Positions 23,212 through 33,734 of a DNA stretch of 44,230 bases are shown in pieces. Numbering within the stretch: position 1 is the stretch's first letter; every line of letters begins with the position of its first letter. Under the pieces are notes generated by a model. That model was not told the origin of the DNA. It ran no database searches and saw only the letters and a program-made list of their open reading frames with translations. The stretch lies in NCBI GenBank assembly GCA_947260005.1, contig CAMYOL010000039.1, forward strand, positions 1 to 44,230, in the 5' to 3' direction. This DNA comes from an uncultured Ectothiorhodospiraceae bacterium (GTDB taxonomy: Bacteria > Pseudomonadota > Gammaproteobacteria > UBA6429 > Thiohalophilaceae). The position numbers and the translations under genes were made by a program.

Positions 23212-24921
23212 TTATTTATTTAATAAGTAAAGCAAATACAAATTAATCAAAACCATTATAAAAGTGATCATTCGCCAGACAAAAGCAGGGCTTCTTTTCA
23301 TTAGAGGAACAAACTCGTTTCTCATCACTTGCTTGTCCGGTTTAGATAGGGCCGCCACAAACTCAGAGAGTCTGCTATAGCGATATTCAGAATTGATTTG
23401 CACTGCTTTTTCAACGGCCTTATCAACCCATAACGGAATTTCAGGATTAAAGTTTTTAAGCGACCGATAGCTGACCCGTCGAATATTTTTAGCAGACAGC
23501 TCCTTTCCATAAGGCAGGTGGCCGGTTAGTAATTCATAGGCAATCACACCTAATGAAAATATATCGGATCGATTGCTGCCCGAACTCCCGGTATGATATT
23601 CGGGCGCTGTGTAGTTAATGGTGCCAAGTAAATTGTTTTCGACCACCGGCGTTGATATTTCATCAATACCAGAGATTTTGGTCGAACCAAAATCAATTAT
23701 TTTAAGGGTGCCGTGTTCATCGATAATAATATTTTCTGGTTTTAAATCCTGATGAATCATTTCGAGGCGATGAAATGCGCGTAAACCACTGGCAATTTGT
23801 TTAATAAAATCACGCACGACAGTTATCGATGGCCTGGGTTCATCTTCCATCCATTGTCTTAAGGTGCGTCCTTCAATATGCTCGGCAATATAATAAAGGG
23901 CTGTTCGGGTACGTGTTATCTCAAGCACTTTCATGACATGCGATTCGTTGATGCGGCGTCCCGCCCATTCTTCATGTAAGAAACGATTAATGTATTCAAT
24001 GTCATCATCGTAATTTACTGAGGGGGCTTTTAGCACGACATTCTGACCAGTTTCAGTATCTTGCGCTAAATAAACCTCCGTACGTTTATTCGAGAACATA
24101 TGTCGCAGGATTTTATATCCGTCCAGAATCATGTTGGCCTCGAGTGGAGGCGGGAAGGGGAGCTCAGTTAACTTCTGATAAAACTCTTCTTCATTTTCGC
24201 CGGGAAGCTCTTCAATCTTTACGAGTTGGACGGTGATGTTGTCATTGGTATTGTTGTCAAGCGCGGCCTGGATAATATCATTGGTCGCTTTATCGAGGTC
24301 ATCAATATTTTCGTTGATCGTCTTTTTTAGTGATTTATCGCTAACAAACTCATGTACACCATCAGTGATAAAAAGAAAAACATCATCAACCTCGAGGGGT
24401 ATCGTGCGGTAGTCTATGTCCAGACGTACATCGATTCCCATTGCACGTGTTAAAAGCGAACGATTTTCATTTATTTCAACGCGATGATCATGAGTTAACT
24501 GCTTGAATTCTTTATCGCGTAATCGATAAATCCGAGTGTCACCAACATGAAAGATATAGCCGGTGTTTGATTTTAATACCATCGCGCTTAGCGTGGTTAC
24601 CATGCCTTTGTGTGACTTGTACTGTCTTTGGCCATTTCCATGTAGCCAGTGATTCAGGGCAGACATAATTTTGTGAGCGGACGTTTTTACCGTCCAACTA
24701 TCTGGAGTGCTAAAATAGTCATTTAGAAAACCATCGGTGCAAGCCTGGCTGGCTTCACGACCCGCATCACTACCGCTCATACCATCGGCGATGGCAATGG
24801 CAATACCTTTTGTTGTTAAGGTCTGGCCAACAGGTATTTGCACGCCACAGGAATCTTCATTTTGTGCTTTACCACCCGCCAAACATTCACTTGCATAATT
24901 TATTTTGAGTATTTTAGACAT
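23212..24921 (-). CDS. Bifunctional PP2C-type phosphatase / Ser-Thr protein kinase, membrane-anchored
   Basis: The 569 residues comprise a PP2C phosphatase (about 1-240) with metal-binding D46-G47, D128 (V-G-D-T-R), D187-G188 and D227-N228; a kinase (about 268-525) with Lys298, the catalytic loop H-Q-D-L-K-P-E-N (390-397) and D-F-G (410-412), A-P-E (439-441); and a C-terminal membrane helix (about 548-567). The catalytic HRD arginine is Gln391 and the region expected to hold the glycine-rich loop (about 272-285) has no glycines. A kinase/phosphatase of this architecture lies between the nitrate transporter and nirB in Pseudomonas, so a role in controlling nitrate assimilation is likely. The start codon lies right behind the narK terminator and has no ribosome-binding site. 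Confidence 0.92.
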   Translation of the reverse strand: MSKILKINYASECLAGGKAQNEDSCGVQIPVGQTLTTKGIAIAIADGMSGSDAGREASQACTDGFLNDYFSTPDSWTVKTSAHKIMSALNHWLHGNGQRQYKSHKGMVTTLSAMVLKSNTGYIFHVGDTRIYRLRDKEFKQLTHDHRVEINENRSLLTRAMGIDVRLDIDYRTIPLEVDDVFLFITDGVHEFVSDKSLKKTINENIDDLDKATNDIIQAALDNNTNDNITVQLVKIEELPGENEEEFYQKLTELPFPPPLEANMILDGYKILRHMFSNKRTEVYLAQDTETGQNVVLKAPSVNYDDDIEYINRFLHEEWAGRRINESHVMKVLEITRTRTALYYIAEHIEGRTLRQWMEDEPRPSITVVRDFIKQIASGLRAFHRLEMIHQDLKPENIIIDEHGTLKIIDFGSTKISGIDEISTPVVENNLLGTINYTAPEYHTGSSGSNRSDIFSLGVIAYELLTGHLPYGKELSAKNIRRVSYRSLKNFNPEIPLWVDKAVEKAVQINSEYRYSRLSEFVAALSKPDKQVMRNEFVPLMKRSPAFVWRMITFIMVLINLYLLYLLNK

Positions 24922-24986: not shown

Positions 24987-26465
24987 TTATTCGACTTCAA
25001 TCATTTGCACGGTTCCATCAGGAAGCACTTCGGCCATGTGTCCTTTAGGTTCATCCATAAAGAAGGCCACAATGGCAAGAATGGCAATGGCTGCAACAGC
25101 AATGACTATAAAGAATGTTTGTGGATTGCTCACGAATGAAAACACAGTTAAGAAGGTGACTGCGCCAACGTTTCCATAGGCGCCTGCCATACCGGCAATT
25201 TGGCCGGTTAAACGGCGTTTAACTAAAGGTACCATCGCGAATACAGCACCTTCGCCGGATTGCACGAAGAAGGAACAAGCCATGGTCGCAACGACGGCTA
25301 ACCAGATTGGCCAGACGCTGGTGATTGAACCTAAAACAAAATAACCAATCGCTAAGCCAGTCAGTAATATCAATAGCGTTTTTTTCCGTCCTATTTTATC
25401 GCTGAACAAACCACCACTTGGTCGCGCGACCAGATTCATAAAGGCAAACCCCGAAGCGAGCAACCCTGCCGTGACCGGGCTCAATTCAAAAGTATCCATG
25501 AAAAACAATGGCAACATTGATACAACAGCCAGTTCAGAACCAAAGGTAACAAAATAGGCTAAGTCTAATACAGCTACTTGTTTGAATTTGTAACGATCGA
25601 TTTCCGGGACTTCAGAAGTGAATACATGTTTGTTAATCTGATAGATTCGAATGGTTTGAAATATATAAAACCCTGCCAAAGTAAAATATATCAATACCGT
25701 TACACCAGAACTTAACATTTTTAAGTTTGATGGTCCTAGTTTCCAGTTGAGCACCGCCAAGGCAGCATACATAGGTATATTCATCACAAGATATAAGAAA
25801 AAATCACCCTTACTGGTGATTTCCATACCGCCCGATTTTTTAGGTTTAAAATAAGTAGAACCTTTTGGGGTATCCGAAACAGAGAAAAAATAGACGGCAG
25901 AATATATCAATGCCAGCACACCGGTCGTTGCTATCGCATAACGCCAGCCATCTTCGCCCCCATAAATTAATGCTAATGTGGGCAGTATCATCGCCGCAGC
26001 CGCAGAACCAAAATTCCCCCAGCCACCGTAGATACCCTCAGCAAGCCCAACCTCTTTAGCCGGGAACCATTCACTGACCATGCGAATGCCGATAACAAAA
26101 CCCGCACCAACAAAACCCAGTAAGAAGCGCATTAAGGCAATACGCTCAAAACTATCAGCAAAGGCAAAGCCAAAACATAAAAAGCTGGAAATAAATAAGA
26201 GCAGGGAATACATTCGCCGAGGGCCAAAATGATCCACTAGCATACCGACAATGATTCGTGCGGGGATGGTCAGAGCAACATTTAGGATAAGGATGGCTTT
26301 AACTTGAGCGTCAGATAATTCTAAAGCTTCACGTAATGCGCCCATAAGAGGTGCGTGGTTAAACCAGACAAAAAAGCTTAAGAAAAAGGCAAACCACGAG
26401 AGATGTAAAATTCTCATCTTACCTTTGAATGACAGTAGGTTTAGTTTAGATTCTGCTTGCTCCAC
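24987..26465 (-). CDS. narK: Nitrate/nitrite transporter (NarK/NasA-type MFS)
   Basis: This major facilitator protein of about 492 residues, with roughly twelve membrane segments, carries both nitrate signature motifs: [12 protein letters not shown] and G-A-Y-G-N-V-G-A-V. It takes up nitrate for the reductases encoded on the other side of the control region. An upstream in-frame ATG exists at 26483, but GAAGGAG lies inside that extension and sits eight bases before the GTG at 26465, so I take the GTG as the start. A sigma-54 promoter lies upstream and a terminator downstream. Confidence 0.93.
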
Positions 26466-26521
26466 GTTGAGCACTCCTTCCATATCAGCGTTGATGTTCG
26501 AATAGTTATTTACCTGCTTAT

Positions 26522-26537
26522 AGCAAGGGCTATGCCA
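26522..26537 (-). promoter_or_regulatory. Sigma-54 promoter for narK
   Basis: Read on the minus strand the sequence is TGGCATAGCCCTTGCT, matching TGGCAY-N5-TTGCW, with the invariant GG (-24) and GC (-12) ten bases apart. Transcription should begin near 26512, about 45 bases before the GTG start of narK. Confidence 0.82.
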
Positions 26538-26590: not shown

Positions 26591-26606
26591 GCACACTAAT
26601 GGTGCA
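26591..26606. promoter_or_regulatory. NtrC-type binding site I
   Basis: GCACACTAATGGTGCA fits GCAC-N5-TGGTGC, the NtrC enhancer consensus. Its centre is about 85 bases upstream of the predicted narK start, the usual distance for a sigma-54 enhancer. Confidence 0.75.
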
Positions 26607-26703: not shown

Positions 26704-26719
26704 TGCACAATTATGGTGC
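26704..26719. promoter_or_regulatory. NtrC-type binding site II
   Basis: TGCACAATTATGGTGC fits the same GCAC-N5-TGGTGC pattern. Its centre lies about 130 bases upstream of the predicted nirB transcription start. A partial third copy (TGCACC at 26735) follows 15 bases later. Confidence 0.75.
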
Positions 26720-26816: not shown

Positions 26817-26832
26817 TGGCATGGAGCTTGCT
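26817..26832 (+). promoter_or_regulatory. Sigma-54 promoter for nirB-nirD-nasA
   Basis: TGGCATGGAGCTTGCT matches TGGCAY-N5-TTGCW with GG at 26818-26819 and GC at 26830-26831, ten bases apart. The predicted start is near 26843, leaving a leader of about 60 bases before nirB. Confidence 0.85.
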
Positions 26833-26904
26833 CTAAAGTGTAGTAAGCAGCAAGTCTAGCATTGCTAAATTAATTAAGTAGTCAGCTCTAACGTAGGAGT
26901 GGAT

Positions 26905-29346
26905 ATGAAAGAAAAGTTAGTGGTCATCGGTAATGGCATGGCCGGCATGCGTACGGTCGAAGAATTATTAAAAATAGCGCCCGATCTTTATGAGATCACT
27001 GTTTTTGGTGAAGAACCATACGGGAATTACAATCGAATTATGCTCTCGCCAGTACTCGCAGGCGAAAAAACCATTGATGAAATCATGTTAAATGATTTGC
27101 AATGGTACGATGACAATAATATCAAGTTAGAGAAAGGTAAAAAGATCGTTGATATTGATCGTAAAGCCAGAACCGTCACCGCTGATGATGGCACCACGGC
27201 TGAATATGATCGTTTATTGATTGCGACTGGCTCCAAACCCTTCATTATCCCACTCCCGGGACATGATCTTCCTGGCGTTATTGCCTTTAGAGACATCGCG
27301 GATGTCGATAAAATGCTCGATGCCGCACAGAATAAAAAGAATGCCATTGTCATTGGTGGCGGATTATTAGGACTGGAAGCGGCTAATGGTCTAATGCAAC
27401 AAGGTATGAATGTAAAGGTCGTTCATATTATGGATACCTTGATGGAACGCCAACTTGATGAGCCCGCTGCGAAGATGTTGAGAAAGTCTCTAGAAGAGCG
27501 CGGTATGCAGTTCTTAATGGGTGCGCAAACCGAATCCATTCAAGGTGACGGTAAAGTCGAAAAAGTTTGTTTTAAAGATGGCAGCTCGGTTGATGCGGAT
27601 ATAGTGGTGATGGCGGTCGGTATACGCCCTAATATTGAGCTCGCTGAAAAAGTCGGCATTCATTGTGAACGAGGTATCGTTGTCAATGACACTATGCAGA
27701 CATTTGACCCTCGCGTTTACTCAGTAGGTGAATGTGTACAACATCGTAATGAAACTTATGGTTTAGTCGCACCCTTGTTTGAAATGGGCAAGGTCTGTGC
27801 GAATCACCTTGCTCAATACGGCATAGGTCGGTATGAAGGTTCTGTCACGTCGACTAAATTAAAAGTGACTGGTATTGATTTATTCTCTGCCGGTAATTTT
27901 ACCGGTGATGAAAACACCGAATCATTAGTCTTTCAGGATGCCGCACAAGGCGTTTATCGTAAGCTAATTGTTCAGGATAATAAGATCAAAGGCACGGTGA
28001 TGTATGGAGATACCATTGATGGCACCTGGTATTTCGATCTAATGCGTGATGGAACGGATATCACTGATTTTCGTTCAACTATTTTATTTGGTCAGGCTCA
28101 TTTGGGTGACTCAGGCCATGGTGATGATAACCGGGTGGTCGCCATGTCAGACAGCGCTGAAATATGTGGTTGTAATGGTGTTTGTAAAGGTGACATCGTT
28201 AACGCAATAACCGAGAAAAAATTATTCACTCTGGACGACGTTCGTGCCCACACAAAAGCGTCGAGCTCCTGTGGTTCCTGTACAGCATTAGTGGAAGCAT
28301 TAATTGCTCACACGGTAGGTGGTGATTACTCAGTTGCTCCACATCTTAAACCAATGTGTCAATGCACGGAGCATACTCATGACGAAATTCGAAAAGCGAT
28401 CCGTGATAATGAGCTGAAATCAATTCCTGCTGCACAGAAATTTCTTGAATGGAAAACACCTGATGGTTGTCCAAAGTGTCGAACTGCAATGAACTATTAT
28501 ATGGTCTGCCAGTGGCCAGACCTCCATTCTGCCGATGATTCACAATCACGTTTTATTAATGAGCGTGCGCATGCCAACATCCAAAAAGATGGGACCTATT
28601 CAGTCATTCCACGCATGTGGGGTGGTGGGACCACGCCAACCGAATTGAGAGCCATTGCAGATGTGGCCGATAAGTTTAAGGTTAAAACAGTGCACGTGAC
28701 AGGTGGTCAACGTATTGGCTTATATGGTTTAAAGAAAGATGAACTACCCGTTATCTGGAAAGATTTGAATGATGCTGGCATGGTTTCTGGACACGCTTAT
28801 GGTAAAGCATTGCGGACAGTAAAAACCTGTGTAGGTAAAGAGTGGTGCCGCTTTGGTACTCAGGATTCTACTCATATGGGAATTGAGCTGGAAAAATTAT
28901 CCTGGGGTTCCTGGATGCCGCATAAATTTAAAATGGCCGCGTCAGGTTGTCCTCGTAATTGTGCTGAAGCCACGATTAAAGATTTTGGTGTGGTTTGTGT
29001 TGACTCTGGATATGAACTTCATGTCGGAGGTAACGGTGGAATAAAAGTGCGTGCTACTGATTTCCTGTGCGCGGTCACGACTGAAGAAGAGGTGCTGGAA
29101 TATTCTGCGGCCTATATGCAATTATACCGTGAAGAGGCCCACTACCTGGAGCGGACCGCACCCTGGATTGAACGTGTCGGTTTAACCCATATTAAAGATA
29201 ACATTGTTGATAATGCGGAGAACCGTAAGGCGTTAGCTGAACGTTTTATTTATTCGCAAAAATTCATGCAAGATGATCCCTGGGAAGCTCGAGCAAAAGG
29301 TGCTGAACAACATGAATTTACCGCTATCAAACAACTTAACGCATAA
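26905..29346 (+). CDS. nirB: Nitrite reductase (NADH) large subunit
   Basis: NirB reduces nitrite to ammonia in the cytoplasm with NADH, using FAD, [2Fe-2S], [4Fe-4S] and siroheme. The 813-residue protein has the FAD fold (V-I-G-N-G-M-A-G), an NAD-binding fold (V-I-G-G-G-L-L-G-L-E), a BFD-type [2Fe-2S] domain (Cys421, 423, 456, 459), and the siroheme/[4Fe-4S] cysteines 642, 648, 682 and 686 (C-V-G-K-E-W-C and C-P-R-N-C). An in-frame GTG at 26899 overlaps the TAGGAG ribosome-binding site, so the ATG at 26905 is the better start. nirD follows 19 bases later. Confidence 0.96.
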   Translation: MKEKLVVIGNGMAGMRTVEELLKIAPDLYEITVFGEEPYGNYNRIMLSPVLAGEKTIDEIMLNDLQWYDDNNIKLEKGKKIVDIDRKARTVTADDGTTAEYDRLLIATGSKPFIIPLPGHDLPGVIAFRDIADVDKMLDAAQNKKNAIVIGGGLLGLEAANGLMQQGMNVKVVHIMDTLMERQLDEPAAKMLRKSLEERGMQFLMGAQTESIQGDGKVEKVCFKDGSSVDADIVVMAVGIRPNIELAEKVGIHCERGIVVNDTMQTFDPRVYSVGECVQHRNETYGLVAPLFEMGKVCANHLAQYGIGRYEGSVTSTKLKVTGIDLFSAGNFTGDENTESLVFQDAAQGVYRKLIVQDNKIKGTVMYGDTIDGTWYFDLMRDGTDITDFRSTILFGQAHLGDSGHGDDNRVVAMSDSAEICGCNGVCKGDIVNAITEKKLFTLDDVRAHTKASSSCGSCTALVEALIAHTVGGDYSVAPHLKPMCQCTEHTHDEIRKAIRDNELKSIPAAQKFLEWKTPDGCPKCRTAMNYYMVCQWPDLHSADDSQSRFINERAHANIQKDGTYSVIPRMWGGGTTPTELRAIADVADKFKVKTVHVTGGQRIGLYGLKKDELPVIWKDLNDAGMVSGHAYGKALRTVKTCVGKEWCRFGTQDSTHMGIELEKLSWGSWMPHKFKMAASGCPRNCAEATIKDFGVVCVDSGYELHVGGNGGIKVRATDFLCAVTTEEEVLEYSAAYMQLYREEAHYLERTAPWIERVGLTHIKDNIVDNAENRKALAERFIYSQKFMQDDPWEARAKGAEQHEFTAIKQLNA

Positions 29347-29365
29347 TCTATATAGGTTTAAAAGT

Positions 29366-29701
29366 ATGAGTGACTGGATTGAAATAGGAACACTAAACGA
29401 TATCCCCAAATTAGGCGCACGTGTCGTTACGGCTAAAGAAAATGATATTGCCGTTTTCCGGACCGCCGAAGACAAGATATTTGCTGTTAAAGACGAATGT
29501 CCACACAAACAAGGTCCTTTATCTCAAGGCATCGTACATGGAAATAAAGTTGCATGTCCTTTGCATGACTGGAAAATACAGCTTGATTCTGGCGTTGCTG
29601 TCGCCCCTGATGAAGGCTGTACAGCAACCTATCCGATTAAAATGGAAGGCGATAAAATTATGTTATCGCTTGTTCCTAATGAAGGTTGTCCTAACAATTA
29701 A
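29366..29701 (+). CDS. nirD: Nitrite reductase (NADH) small subunit
   Basis: This 111-residue Rieske-fold protein partners NirB. It has C-P-H-K-Q-G-P-L-S at the first and C-P-L-H-D-W at the second metal-binding loop, i.e. C-x-H and C-x-x-H. A longer frame is open upstream inside nirB, but the family start is M-S-D-W-I at 29366, where TAGG lies about ten bases before the ATG. Confidence 0.95.
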   Translation: MSDWIEIGTLNDIPKLGARVVTAKENDIAVFRTAEDKIFAVKDECPHKQGPLSQGIVHGNKVACPLHDWKIQLDSGVAVAPDEGCTATYPIKMEGDKIMLSLVPNEGCPNN

Positions 29702-29729: not shown

Positions 29730-31910
29730 ATGCTGTTTGGTCGAAAACAAAAAAATCCAATCAAAATTGCCGACAAAGGTGTTGTTGACTGGAAATACAC
29801 CACATGTGGATATTGTTCTACAGGCTGTTCTATTGAAGTTGGGCTGGATGAAAAAGGTGAAGCGGTTGCTACTCGTGGAGTTAGTGGCGCAGATGTTAAT
29901 CGCGGTAAACTTTGCTTAAAAGGGATTTATGAACACGAATTATTTAAACTTGAAGGGCGTGGTGAAACACCATTAATTCGTGACAAGTATTACGAGGCCT
30001 TCGAGAAAACCAATTGGGATACGGCCTTAGATAAAGTTTCCGATGAAATCAAACGCATTCAGGAAACCTATGGTCGCGATTCATTTGCCATTGTCTCCAC
30101 CGGTCAAATTATGACAGAGGAATTTTACACCTTAGGCAAGCTTGCCCGAGGTGTCATTGGAACCAATAATTACGATGGCAATACCACACTTTGTATGTCA
30201 TCGGCTGTATCGGGTTATAAACGATCATTTGGTTCTGATGGTCCGCCAGGATGTTACGAAGATTTTGAGCATACTGAATGCCTGTTAGCGGTTGGATCGA
30301 ATTTACCAGAACAACACCCCATTATATTCTGGCGTTTGAAACAGGCGCTGGAAAAACGAAAATTCCCTCTCATTGTGGTTGATCCTCGTGTCACTATGCT
30401 GGCACAAATGGCCGATATCCATTTACCGGTGACTCCGGGTACGGATTTAGCCTTGTTAAATAGTCTGGCCTATGTGATCCTGGATGAAGGTCTTGAAGAT
30501 AAAGCTTATATAGAAGCTCACACGAATGGTTTTGATGATTTTTATGAAACCGTTAAACAGTATGATCCTGTGAGTGCCTCGAAGATTTGTGGCATTGATG
30601 AGGATACCATTCGGAATGTGGCTCGCACCTATGCCAAAGCGGGTGCAGCAATGACAATCTGGACGATGGGTATAAACCAAAGCACACATGGCTCGGACGG
30701 TGTTTGTGCGATTAATAATTTGAATCTGGTCACAGGCAATATCGGTAAACCCGGTGGTACCAGTTTATCTATTACTGGTCAGTGTAATGCAATGGGTACG
30801 CGCGAGTGGTCTTCTTGTTCAGGATTGCCCGGCTACCGAACTTTAGAGAAGGAAGAGGATCGCGAGACCATCGCCAATTTCTGGGGAATCGATAAAGAAT
30901 TTTTCCCTAAAAAGCGTGGTCTTTTTCAAACGGATATCTTCCCCGCAATTGAAACCGGGCAAATTAAAGGATTGTGGATTATTGCAACCAATCCGATGAC
31001 GTCAATGAGTAATACCGATCGTATTCGTAAAACCCTTGAAAAGCTGGATTTCCTGGTTGTTCAGGATGCGTATCAGGATTGTGAATCGAATCAATATGCC
31101 AACGTCTATCTACCTGCGGGTGTTTGGGCAGAAAAAGAAGGCTGTTTTACCAATACCGAACGCCGGGTCAACCTTATACGTAGTGTGATTAAACCCTATG
31201 CTGATTCAAAACCGGATCTCTGGATTTTTAATCAAATTGCCAAGCGTTTTGAACAGGGTCAAAAAATTAAATTCCCGGAGACCTCTTCAGGTGTGTTTGA
31301 CGAACTACGTACGCTTTCTAAAGGTCGCATGCTTGATTACTCAGGTATGTCACACGATAAGATTGAACAACAGCGAGGCATCCAATGGCCTTGTACGGAA
31401 GGCGATGAACAAGGTTCAGCTCGGCTCTATACGGATGGTAAGTTTCAATACCCCGATGGCAAAGCAAAGTTATTAGCATTGCCCTTTATTGATAACAATG
31501 AAGTCCCTGATGATGAATATCCATTCTGGATGAATAGTGGCAGGGTGGTTGAGCATTTTCATACTCGGACACGAACCGGAAAAGTTGGAAATATTAATAA
31601 ATTTAGTCCAACACCTTACATGGAAATGAATCCCGATTCTGCCAAAGAACTCGGCATACGTCATGGGAGTTATGCGCGCTTAACATCTAGGCGCGGTGAT
31701 GCTGTTGTGATGGTGCAGCTGACTCAGCGTGTTGCACCCAATATGGTATTTATTCCATTTCATTTTCATGATTGTGTAAACCGATTAACCTTAGGTCTGC
31801 TTGATCCACATTCGAGACAACCCGCATTTAAACAATGCGCGGTTAAAATAGAATTGGCGGTTGATCAGCACACTGCAGCAGAACGAAATAAAGAAGCACG
31901 TTCATTTTAG
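29730..31910 (+). CDS. nasA: Assimilatory nitrate reductase catalytic subunit (molybdopterin)
   Basis: This 726-residue bis-MGD enzyme reduces nitrate to nitrite. It has the N-terminal [4Fe-4S] cysteines 26, 29, 33 and 62, the lysine in L-C-L-K-G that links cluster and pterin, and the molybdenum ligand Cys155 in N-T-T-L-C-M-S-S-A. There is no Tat signal, so it is cytoplasmic. The length resembles cyanobacterial NarB and lacks the C-terminal BFD [2Fe-2S] domain of the NasA/NasC enzymes that are about 870-900 residues long. No NADH-dependent reductase partner is encoded nearby; instead a membrane iron-sulfur protein follows nine bases later. Confidence 0.92.
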   Translation: MLFGRKQKNPIKIADKGVVDWKYTTCGYCSTGCSIEVGLDEKGEAVATRGVSGADVNRGKLCLKGIYEHELFKLEGRGETPLIRDKYYEAFEKTNWDTALDKVSDEIKRIQETYGRDSFAIVSTGQIMTEEFYTLGKLARGVIGTNNYDGNTTLCMSSAVSGYKRSFGSDGPPGCYEDFEHTECLLAVGSNLPEQHPIIFWRLKQALEKRKFPLIVVDPRVTMLAQMADIHLPVTPGTDLALLNSLAYVILDEGLEDKAYIEAHTNGFDDFYETVKQYDPVSASKICGIDEDTIRNVARTYAKAGAAMTIWTMGINQSTHGSDGVCAINNLNLVTGNIGKPGGTSLSITGQCNAMGTREWSSCSGLPGYRTLEKEEDRETIANFWGIDKEFFPKKRGLFQTDIFPAIETGQIKGLWIIATNPMTSMSNTDRIRKTLEKLDFLVVQDAYQDCESNQYANVYLPAGVWAEKEGCFTNTERRVNLIRSVIKPYADSKPDLWIFNQIAKRFEQGQKIKFPETSSGVFDELRTLSKGRMLDYSGMSHDKIEQQRGIQWPCTEGDEQGSARLYTDGKFQYPDGKAKLLALPFIDNNEVPDDEYPFWMNSGRVVEHFHTRTRTGKVGNINKFSPTPYMEMNPDSAKELGIRHGSYARLTSRRGDAVVMVQLTQRVAPNMVFIPFHFHDCVNRLTLGLLDPHSRQPAFKQCAVKIELAVDQHTAAERNKEARSF

Positions 31911-31919
31911 AGGCAAAGA

Positions 31920-33734
31920 ATGTTTAAAGTACGTGATGATGAACCCGATTACGTTTTTCTATCCGACACGAAGTCGCCGAGAAAGAATCAATATGGTGAT
32001 GACATTGAGTTGGCAAAAAAAGGTGATGGACTAACCGGTAAAAGTCTCAATATTAATGGTGACGAGGGGGTTAGTGATTACCCTGATCGGTATAAGCAAC
32101 ACGGTTTTTATTTTAATGCCGATAACTGCATTTCTTGTCATGCCTGCGAGTCAGCCTGTAGCGAAAAAAATGATCTTCCGCCTTATCTGGCTTATCGAGC
32201 GGTAGGTTATGTGGAGGGAGGGACTTATCCCAGTTATACTCGATTGAACATCTCGATGGCGTGTAACCACTGTGATGATCCGGTTTGTTTAAAAGGTTGC
32301 CCAACCCGCGCGTATACAAAGTTTGCCGAATATGGTGCTGTTTTACAGGATCCTGATATTTGTTTTGGCTGTGGCTATTGCACCTGGGTATGCCCGTATA
32401 ACGCGCCTCAGCTGGATATGGAAAAAGGACATGTGCATAAATGTAATATGTGTGTCGACCGTTTGGAGGTCGGATTAAAACCCGCGTGCGCTTCTGCCTG
32501 TTTGGCTGGTGCCCTGGATTTTGGTGTTACCGAAACGACACCTGAAAATCGTGATCAATTAAAGACACAAATACCGGGTTTTCCAACGCCGGAGATTACC
32601 CACCCTAATATTCGTTTTCAGCAGACTAAAACTTTACCGAAAGAAATGACACGAGCTGATTCAACGGACATCAAATATCAGCTAAATGATAAAAAAGATG
32701 CCTTTGTTCCGGTGATTAATGAGTCCCGGGCGAATAAAACCAAACATTGGAATCTTAAAAAACTATTGTCATCACATGAAAATGCACACATTGCGTTCAC
32801 ATTAAGCACGCAAACGGTGATTGGTGCGTTTTTGATATTTTTGTATAGTCAATACATGGGAGGCTCAACTCTTGGTGCCATCGCTGAGCAGGCGCGCTAT
32901 CCGATATTGATTAGCAGTTTTATACTGATGAGTTTTGGTATGCTCAAGTTAAATCTACATCTGGGCCGTCCACAACGATTCTATCGTGGCTTTTATAACC
33001 TTCGACATTCTCCGGTAAGCCGCGAAATTGCCGGAGTCTCATTATTCTTTGCTGGAATGAGTGGGTTTATCTTTTTTGGATTTTTCGATAATGCCTTTAC
33101 GCATTTTATGGCAGGGTTATCTGCGATCACAGCAATCCTCGGTGCGGCTGTGGGGACTTATTATATGTATAAACTCTATCGCATACCGGCCAGACCATTT
33201 TGGGATCACTGGCAGACGGCCACTAGTTTCCTCGGCACGACTATGAGCCTTGGTGGACTGTTTGTGTTGGTTGCTTCAATGATCACGCTTCAGACATCAC
33301 AAATCGCCCCGGTCGCTGACAAGCTACTGCTTATTATTCTGGCTGGAGTGCTATTAGAAGGTATTGGCTTGCTTGGTCACGCTCACTCGATGAAACATGC
33401 CCAACATGAAGGGGCATTGTCTCATTTCGAACAAAAAACAAAATACGGAAAAAGTTATCTGCTTCGAAATGCGTTATTACTGTTAAGTCTTACCTTGGCC
33501 TACCTTGCGTATCAATTTTCTATGAGCTACGAACTATTGTTAACCATGATTTCGATACTCACGGTTGTCACTATCGCATTTGCTATTATAGGGCGAGCCT
33601 TATTCTATGTTCTTGTTATCCCGACTACGATGCCCGGCGCTTTCTTTTGGCGCAATAAAGGGTTTGAAGAGCATGCAAGAGAAACAGGTTTAGCCGATAT
33701 GCCACAAACAGGTGTTTTACCCGATGGTCATTAA
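31920..33734 (+). CDS. Fused DmsB-like four-cluster ferredoxin and DmsC-like membrane anchor
   Basis: The 604-residue fusion has an N-terminal DmsB-like part (about 60-205) with four complete cysteine groups (70/73/76/80, 115/118/123/127, 148/151/154/158 and 175/178/190/194), enough for four [4Fe-4S] clusters, a linker (about 205-285), and a DmsC-like part with about eight membrane helices (290-570). His347 in L-H-L-G-R-P corresponds to the quinol-site His65 of E. coli DmsC. Loops 2-3, 4-5 and 6-7 are rich in Arg, Lys and His, which places the N-terminal iron-sulfur domain in the cytoplasm; there is no Tat signal. The likely role is passing electrons from quinol to the adjacent nitrate reductase. 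Confidence 0.88.
   Translation: MFKVRDDEPDYVFLSDTKSPRKNQYGDDIELAKKGDGLTGKSLNINGDEGVSDYPDRYKQHGFYFNADNCISCHACESACSEKNDLPPYLAYRAVGYVEGGTYPSYTRLNISMACNHCDDPVCLKGCPTRAYTKFAEYGAVLQDPDICFGCGYCTWVCPYNAPQLDMEKGHVHKCNMCVDRLEVGLKPACASACLAGALDFGVTETTPENRDQLKTQIPGFPTPEITHPNIRFQQTKTLPKEMTRADSTDIKYQLNDKKDAFVPVINESRANKTKHWNLKKLLSSHENAHIAFTLSTQTVIGAFLIFLYSQYMGGSTLGAIAEQARYPILISSFILMSFGMLKLNLHLGRPQRFYRGFYNLRHSPVSREIAGVSLFFAGMSGFIFFGFFDNAFTHFMAGLSAITAILGAAVGTYYMYKLYRIPARPFWDHWQTATSFLGTTMSLGGLFVLVASMITLQTSQIAPVADKLLLIILAGVLLEGIGLLGHAHSMKHAQHEGALSHFEQKTKYGKSYLLRNALLLLSLTLAYLAYQFSMSYELLLTMISILTVVTIAFAIIGRALFYVLVIPTTMPGAFFWRNKGFEEHARETGLADMPQTGVLPDGH

Follow-up and report, generated by a model that had tools for sequence, protein, structure and literature searches.

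A NasA-type nitrate reductase without BFD domain next to a DmsB-DmsC fusion protein: a candidate quinol-dependent system for nitrate assimilation

The DNA stretch analyzed here, in the following called the window, comprises the whole 44,230 nt of contig CAMYOL010000039.1 from an uncultured bacterium of the Ectothiorhodospiraceae (Gammaproteobacteria). It harbors an open reading frame for a nasA-like catalytic subunit of 726 aa (29730..31910, plus strand), which is followed on the same strand, after a gap of 9 bases, by a frame of 604 aa (31920..33734) that joins a DmsB-like iron-sulfur (FeS) part to a DmsC-like membrane anchor. Together, the two proteins probably constitute a cytoplasm-facing, membrane-bound quinol:nitrate oxidoreductase that would make nitrite for assimilation. 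An initial annotation of the window had described this layout, with a 726-residue NasA and the fusion gene nine bases downstream, and had proposed that nitrate assimilation is driven by the quinone pool. Both frames were present as described. The proposal is supported by the co-occurrence of the two proteins among genomes, by the loss of the BFD domain from NasA and by the finding of no NasB-type subunit, but is tempered by the presence of NirB and NirD and by canonical NasA proteins in some relatives.

Results

The fusion protein and the NasA-type subunit occur together

Relatives of the fusion protein were searched in GTDB species genomes. The scan gave 531 stretches, and the 80 best of them were retrieved. 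A complete NasA frame was located upstream of the fusion gene in 63 of these loci, NasA was cut by a contig end in 11, and the automatic table contained none in six. The distance between the mechanically defined frames was within 300 bases for 58 of the 63 complete NasA genes and 301–2810 bases for the other five. Five of the six loci without a tabulated NasA start at most about 310 bases from a contig end; in one of these, L070, the last 51 NasA residues can be seen at that end. L053 has 2 kb before the contig end without NasA, including a frame read as transposase.

Presence and absence were compared in 274 genomes drawn evenly from the class of the window and in a partly overlapping sample of 398 genomes from its phylum; for many genomes, scoring was restricted to the top first-look candidates (four in the class sample, two to three in the phylum sample). 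In the class sample, the fusion was present in 46 genomes (37 families) and this type of NasA in 47. Both were found in 45 genomes, the fusion alone in 1, NasA alone in 2 and neither in 226 (Fisher p 5e-48 with relatedness ignored, the counts across genomes not being independent observations). NasA proteins of this type were 67–88% identical to that of the window and scored at least 621 bits, while every other match scored at most 535 bits. The three exceptions are all located at contig ends: the fusion frame runs to the end in G187, and the NasA frame does so in G067 and G273. In the phylum sample, both proteins were found in the same 6 genomes, including that of the window, with one NasA showing 64% identity.

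At 49 of the 52 fusion places in both samples, NasA was encoded directly upstream on the same strand, with a median gap of 26 bases and a largest gap of 656 bases, which excludes a chance neighborhood. Two of the remaining places are contig ends (G186, G187), and G015 keeps both genes on different contigs. These results bear out the expectation that nasA and the fusion gene are conserved as a pair.

Named carriers of the fusion comprise Methylomonas, Methylobacter, Methyloglobulus, Methylomicrobium, Crenothrix, Thiotrichaceae, Chromatiales, Sulfuricella, Halothiobacillaceae and a few alphaproteobacteria, and many carriers are metagenome-assembled genomes. In Methyloglobulus morosus KoM1 (L057, identical to G276), the NasA query gave a single match read as a nitrate reductase, namely the fusion-type NasA, and there was no match over the narG cut-off. 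The distribution is patchy: the two other sampled genomes from the family of the window lack the fusion, and in one of these (G239) a frame of 902 aa matches NasA with 425 bits. None of 18 matching plasmid records covered 80% of the fusion.

Small genes are located between nasA and the fusion gene in four loci (L019:6708-7348, L076:7297-7859, L033:7386-7718 and L032:2705-5153) and were read as mobile-type (toxin-antitoxin-like, Uma2- or endonuclease-like). A second, canonical-type NasA of 880–925 aa is encoded a few kb from the pair in L144 (13532-16192), L029, L060, L043 and L008, of which that of L144 was tested for BFD. In L029 and L060, a NasB-like frame of 405–410 aa lies between the canonical-type NasA and the pair. 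Some genomes thus seem to keep both types of electron supply side by side.

The catalytic subunit belongs to the Nas/Nap clade and lacks the BFD domain

The Pfam domains of the window NasA are restricted to molybdopterin, dinucleotide-binding and Fe4S4 domains. The protein is NarB-sized, and the frames of the 63 relatives with complete NasA have 724–777 aa. Cys26, Cys29, Cys33 and Cys62, assigned to the FS0 cluster, and Cys155, the assigned molybdenum ligand, were invariant in all 64 sequences (the 63 relatives and the window). The mean column identity of the NasA set was 79%.

The motif at the molybdenum ligand, LCM(S/A)SAV, is of the Nas/Nap type, while formate dehydrogenases show C-H or X-H (X being selenocysteine) at this position. 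We calculated a maximum-likelihood tree of 51 rows that included 25 fusion-linked NasA proteins together with formate dehydrogenases, NapA and canonical NasA. All 25, each with the CM motif, formed one clade with 100/100 support and a long stem, apart from the three other groups. The formate dehydrogenase rows were split from the Nas/Nap side with 97/90 support. Nearest to the fusion-linked clade was the row of an 824 aa enzyme from G137; the program flagged this long-branch join as possibly false. This enzyme (L114:846-3320) is Nas/Nap-like with LCMAAAV and has no BFD cysteine pattern. Another Nas/Nap-like enzyme, of 743 aa (G177, L109:4164-6395), has LCW replacing LCM and also lacks the BFD cysteine pattern; no fusion was present in the stretch read for either of them. 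The predicted fold of the window NasA (mean predicted local distance difference test score, pLDDT, of 70) was closest to NapA from Desulfovibrio (2jio, TM score 0.80). Judged by its active-site motif and its place in the tree, the catalytic subunit is a member of the Nas/Nap clade of nitrate reductases with a molybdenum-bis(pyranopterin guanine dinucleotide) cofactor (Mo-bisPGD).

The window protein lacks the Pfam domain Fer2_BFD, which was detected in none of 38 fusion-linked NasA proteins but in all seven canonical NasA proteins, in agreement with the initial annotation of a NasA without C-terminal BFD domain. Six of the canonical proteins stem from genomes other than the fusion carrier of the seventh. 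Among them, nirB and nirD are located directly upstream in L111, L117, L118 and L120, L116 has no nirB or nirD in the 6 kb read, and L128 lies beside a NirB-like frame. The seventh is encoded in G080, where it follows the fusion gene at a distance of 0.8 kb.

The fusion protein combines four cluster-binding groups with an eight-helix anchor

The fusion protein consists of an N-terminal extension (residues 1–60), a four-cluster ferredoxin domain (about 61–205), a linker, the anchor (288–564) and a conserved C-terminal tail. Pfam identified four-cluster ferredoxin domains and a DmsC domain (PF04976) at residues 286–565 (E 2e-16), the latter in all 46 fusions scanned. The best NCBIfam match was DMSO_dmsB (TIGR02951; residues 60–204, E 2.8e-45) with 154.2 bits, which does not reach the cut-off of 214.1. 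Sixteen cysteines in four groups (Cys70–Cys194, codons at 32127..32501, plus strand) were each invariant in 81 of 81 fusions (the 80 fetched loci and the window), as were His347, His430 and His487. His347 (codon 32958..32960, plus strand) aligns with His65 of E. coli DmsC, which, from the DmsC literature, we take to be a quinol-site residue. An AlphaFold2 model showed eight long helices between residues 288 and 564, and the membrane half was modeled well. The initial annotation of four [4Fe-4S] groups joined to an eight-helix, DmsC-like anchor with His347 was corroborated by the invariant residues and by the model.

The two halves were compared with five reference proteins only. In this set, the B half matched E. 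coli DmsB with 128.7 bits, SoeB with 86.6 and DsrO from the same genome with 57.3, and the C half matched E. coli DmsC with 40.0 bits and SoeC with 9.9. A derivation of the fusion from SoeBC was considered and is unsupported, as E. coli DmsB and DmsC score higher. In structural comparison, the anchor fold matched subunit C of alternative complex III (Z 22.5, root mean square deviation 3.5, 284 residues) and polysulfide reductase PsrC (2vpw_C; Z 18.0, root mean square deviation 3.1, 237 residues).

The distribution of charges argues for a cytoplasmic FeS domain. Lysine and arginine residues were counted on each side of the anchor, with the helices taken either from the alignment or from the hydropathy of each protein itself. 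With aligned helices, the ratio of the N-terminal side to the other side was 21:0 for the window fusion and 24:1, 17:0 and 17:1 for three relatives, compared with 14:1 for SoeC and 5:5 for E. coli DmsC. No export signal was seen in NasA or in the fusion, and no twin-arginine motif was seen in the NasA N-terminus as read. From the charge bias and the lack of an export signal, a cytoplasmic location is predicted for NasA, for the FeS domain and for the ends of helices 2, 4 and 6. In the model, His347 is located at the end of helix 2 (326–348), thus at its cytoplasmic end, which suggests a quinol site on the cytoplasmic side. Conservation was 0.83 and 0.82 for the anchor loops 2–3 and 4–5, respectively, and 0.48 for the whole membrane part. 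With the protons of quinol and of nitrate on one side, the reaction would be electroneutral, and we consider the enzyme to be probably of this kind.

The pair is located in a nirBD operon with sigma-54- and NtrC-like sites

The order of genes in the window is nirB, nirD, nasA and the fusion gene, with narK in divergent orientation. NirB, the large subunit of the NADH-type nitrite reductase (26899..29346, plus strand; start possibly ATG at 26905), matched TIGR02374 with 922 bits, over the cut-off, and NirD, the Rieske-type small subunit (29273..29701, plus strand), matched TIGR02378 over the cut-off. The placement of the pair in a nirBD operon under sigma-54/NtrC control, as annotated initially, fits the gene order. 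It also fits the sites in the window and the enrichment of both patterns before nirB in relatives. A sigma-54-like -24/-12 site, TGGCATGGAGCTTGC, is located upstream of nirB (26817..26831, plus strand), and two NtrC-like palindromes, GCACACTAATGGTGC (26591..26605) and GCACAATTATGGTGC (26705..26719), lie further upstream; all three are pattern matches. A divergent sigma-54-like site upstream of narK (26523..26537, minus strand) has one mismatch to the searched pattern.

The patterns TGGCAY-N5-TTGC (sigma-54) and GCAC-N5-7-GTGC (NtrC) were searched from 420 bases upstream to 60 bases inside nirB in 39 relatives, namely those of the 80 that have a full-length nirB frame and enough upstream flank. 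The sigma-54 pattern was found in 22 of the 39, but in 1.8% of random 480-base stretches from the same loci, and the NtrC pattern in 26 of the 39, compared with 4.3% of random stretches. Directly before NasA, the two patterns were found in 8 and 9 of 61 loci, respectively. With two mismatches allowed, the window contained 39 sigma-54 matches against 39.5 expected, so that a single match in the window means little and conservation is what counts. Among seven further loci, L142–L144 showed a site before nirB.

Evidence against a quinol-dependent reductase and alternative explanations

Several observations weigh against a quinol-dependent assimilatory reductase. The FeS half of the fusion model had a pLDDT below 50. 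Cytochrome bd oxidases also matched the anchor fold (Z 17.6–20.4), and the anchor fold alone is therefore no proof of DmsC-like quinol oxidation. When helices were taken from hydropathy, nine segments resulted for both the window fusion and DmsC, with charge ratios of 18:4 and 4:8, so that the bias of the window protein was less clean. Since some relatives have a canonical-type NasA as well, nitrate assimilation does not always depend on the fusion type alone. NapA is also encoded in the genome of the window. The strict sigma-54 pattern was missing near nirB in 17 of the 39 loci, and no site was found in L138–L140, which belong to one family, or in L141 from another class; sigma-54/NtrC control is not universal among the loci. 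The best NCBIfam score of the window NasA was to Fdh-alpha (TIGR01591; 597.3 bits, cut-off 666), and NasC (NF047855; 540.6 bits, cut-off 1100) was not reached. As both scores are under their cut-offs, neither curated model covers this protein. The NasC/NasA equivalog NF041323 (489.4 bits, cut-off 1000) and the DmsA family model TIGR02166 (153 bits, cut-off 778) were not reached either. Finally, NirB was encoded in all 46 fusion-genome entries searched, which makes an NADH route via NirB-NirD conceivable.

By this route, NirB-NirD would feed NasA from NADH, and the fusion would only anchor or supplement the enzyme. A precedent is given by Paracoccus denitrificans, in which NasB-NasG feed NasC from NADH, according to PMC6618116 and PMC4724949, and nirBD belongs to the same operon as the pair. 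The fusion-linked NasA, however, lacks BFD, the likely entry point for these electrons, which is present in all canonical NasA proteins tested. NirB is of a different type (37–38% identity) in G589, G591, G611, G276, G157/G281, G268 and G066, and this different type is encoded on another contig in G611, G157, G268 and G066 (in G066 at contig edges, perhaps an assembly gap) and about 8 kb downstream of the pair, outside the 18 kb read, in G589. In the sampled genomes with a different-type NirB, NasA and the fusion are still side by side. Moreover, a mere anchor would need neither 16 invariant cluster cysteines nor a quinol-site histidine. We consider this explanation unlikely.

In the window genome, BFD domains over the cut-off belong to three proteins, with no NasB-type subunit among them: NirB, the product of a second, partial nirB copy located on a 3.8-kb contig, and a flavoprotein that is unlinked and was read with a membrane part. 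The initial annotation had stated that an NADH-dependent partner gene is lacking. This holds for a dedicated NasB-type subunit, but the operon does encode the NADH-type NirB together with NirD. Three further places in the genome of the window match NasA and were read as NapA with Nap-type genes, SoeA of SoeABC and NuoG, which leaves no orphan molybdenum subunit for the fusion. The best match to narG in this genome scored 19 bits (cut-off 1084) and is the SoeA frame on C22.

The pair might also be a quinol:nitrate reductase that serves redox balancing or respiration and not mainly nitrogen assimilation. The quinol-linked layout is compatible with this, and many named carriers come from lithotrophic or methanotrophic groups, in which electron spilling may be needed. 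In G589 and G611, the pair forms a two-gene unit of its own: the 18 kb read contains neither nirBD nor narK, and neither a sigma-54 nor an NtrC site was seen. On the other hand, nirB is linked in many loci (39 of 80 with full-length frame and flank), sigma-54 and NtrC sites are present, NirB in all 46 entries is as expected for assimilation, and a quinol site on the same side as the active site would conserve no energy. A main role outside of assimilation thus appears rather improbable.

An incidental neighborhood, with the fusion serving another enzyme, could be suspected from the small genes that split the pair in L019, L032, L033 and L076, the separate contigs in G015 and the 2 kb without NasA in L053, but it is barely credible, as presence and absence match in the 274 and 398 genomes and every fusion located off contig ends in the two samples co-occurs with this NasA. 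Equally improbable is a formate dehydrogenase-like enzyme: the TIGR01591 score and the best sequence match in the PDB (formate dehydrogenase with 451.5 bits, NapA just below with 440 bits) are outweighed by the CM(S/A)SAV motif, the tree, NapA as best fold match, and the nirBD operon with divergent narK, and this identity was rejected on the active-site motif and the tree placement.

Neighboring genes and other NirB-like proteins

The divergent narK gene (24987..26483, minus strand) encodes a NarK-type nitrate/nitrite transporter (TIGR00886 over the cut-off). Next to it, the window contains a gene for a fusion of a PP2C phosphatase and a Ser/Thr kinase (23212-24921, minus strand), which recurs beside narK in a number of relatives and is possibly a regulator of nitrate uptake or assimilation.

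A second, nearly identical copy of narK-nirB, in which the nirB frame is broken, is present on a 3.8-kb contig (G000:C75, L097), probably as a strain variant in the assembly. Contig G000:C26 (L098:1060-4447) encodes a 663 aa protein with a NirB-like FAD/NAD domain, BFD and a part read as membrane, followed by a 461 aa protein with many CxxCH motifs. Similar frames of 666–710 aa with 33–37% identity to NirB were seen in G157, G268, G126, G045, G184 and G015.

Discussion

The preferred reading is that NasA and the fusion protein act as one quinol:nitrate reductase. Quinol would be oxidized close to His347, where the DmsC-like domain faces the cytoplasm. The electrons would then travel via the fusion's four [4Fe-4S] clusters to FS0 of NasA and on to Mo-bisPGD on Cys155, where nitrate would be reduced, and NirBD would convert nitrite to ammonium with NADH. 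With quinol oxidation and nitrate reduction on the same side, this reaction would be electroneutral, unlike that of NarGHI. Of the four NADH required per nitrate, one would be saved in organisms for which NADH is costly. Formation of a complex, quinol oxidation, enzymatic activity and electroneutrality are all predictions from the protein sequences. The reverse reaction, oxidation of nitrite to nitrate with a quinone as acceptor, was rejected on redox potentials.

Canonical proteobacterial NasA and NasC carry BFD and receive electrons from NADH via NasB, NasB-NasG or Flp. They share with the fusion-linked NasA the Nas/Nap clade, the LCM-type site, the cytoplasmic location and often the linkage to nirBD. 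The fusion-linked NasA differs in the lack of BFD, in that no NasB-type subunit was found, in an identity of only about 33–40%, in its own clade and in having a membrane partner with four clusters. Cyanobacterial NarB and NasC of Bacillus, with about 710–730 aa and no BFD, resemble it in these two traits. They receive electrons from ferredoxin/flavodoxin or an NADH subunit and, unlike the window enzyme, are not known to have a membrane anchor. A size of about 710 aa is also given in PMC7331816.

The partner protein resembles E. coli DmsABC in its DmsB-like clusters, its DmsC-like eight-helix anchor and the equivalent of His65. In contrast to DmsABC, B and C are fused, the catalytic subunit is of the Nas/Nap type, no twin-arginine motif was seen and the FeS side is cytoplasmic by charge. 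A respiratory DmsABC was rejected because of the Nas/Nap-type catalytic subunit and the twin-arginine motif not being seen. SoeABC, the sulfite:quinone oxidoreductase, is a cytoplasm-facing molybdoenzyme with a DmsC/NrfD-like anchor that catalyzes an oxidation. The SoeABC read in the genome of the window shares the positive charges on the N-terminal side of the anchor, but its B and C subunits are separate and SoeC is weakly similar to the fusion anchor. NarGHI performs the quinol:nitrate reaction with a cytoplasmic active site, and its NarI is a dihaem b-type cytochrome with a quinol site on the periplasmic side, so that energy is conserved. NarG belongs to another clade than the Nas/Nap-type NasA of the window, and no NarG over the cut-off was found in this genome.

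The pair shares with complex iron-sulfur molybdoenzymes (CISM) a four-cluster subunit with 16 cysteines. The DmsC-domain anchor, with the His65 equivalent and an ActC/PsrC-like fold, is a candidate quinone-reactive membrane subunit, and a complex with NasA is predicted from genetic coupling. A 2020 survey states that subunits of this kind are absent from all members of the Nas/Nap/Aio clade. In genome papers dealing with sulfur bacteria or methanotrophs (PMC4914600, PMC11355018, PMC10950024), nasA, which may be of this or another type, is listed with nirBD, and the parts available name no such redox partner. The initial annotation knew of no described enzyme of this layout, and no description of the NasA-fusion pair was found in the parts available of the open-licence PMC literature, a search that did not extend to subscription journals and preprints. 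By sequence, the pair combines a catalytic subunit of the Nas clade with a layout of the CISM type.

We propose that the pair quite likely represents a third class of electron supply for bacterial assimilatory nitrate reductases, beside the NADH- and ferredoxin-fed classes: a quinol:nitrate reductase that is electroneutral, faces the cytoplasm and is built from a BFD-less NasA and a one-piece DmsBC. The fusion of the pair is carried by 46 of the 274 class genomes and 6 of the 398 phylum genomes, and carriers include methanotrophs, groups of sulfur oxidizers and some alphaproteobacteria. Where DmsB or DmsC matches stand next to nasA in such genomes, they may be mistaken for a sign of dimethyl sulfoxide respiration. 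If our proposal is true, the pair would be a case of module exchange, in which the BFD redox domain was replaced by a whole quinol-oxidizing module, and nitrate assimilation in the carriers would be membrane-bound and sensitive to inhibitors of quinone sites.

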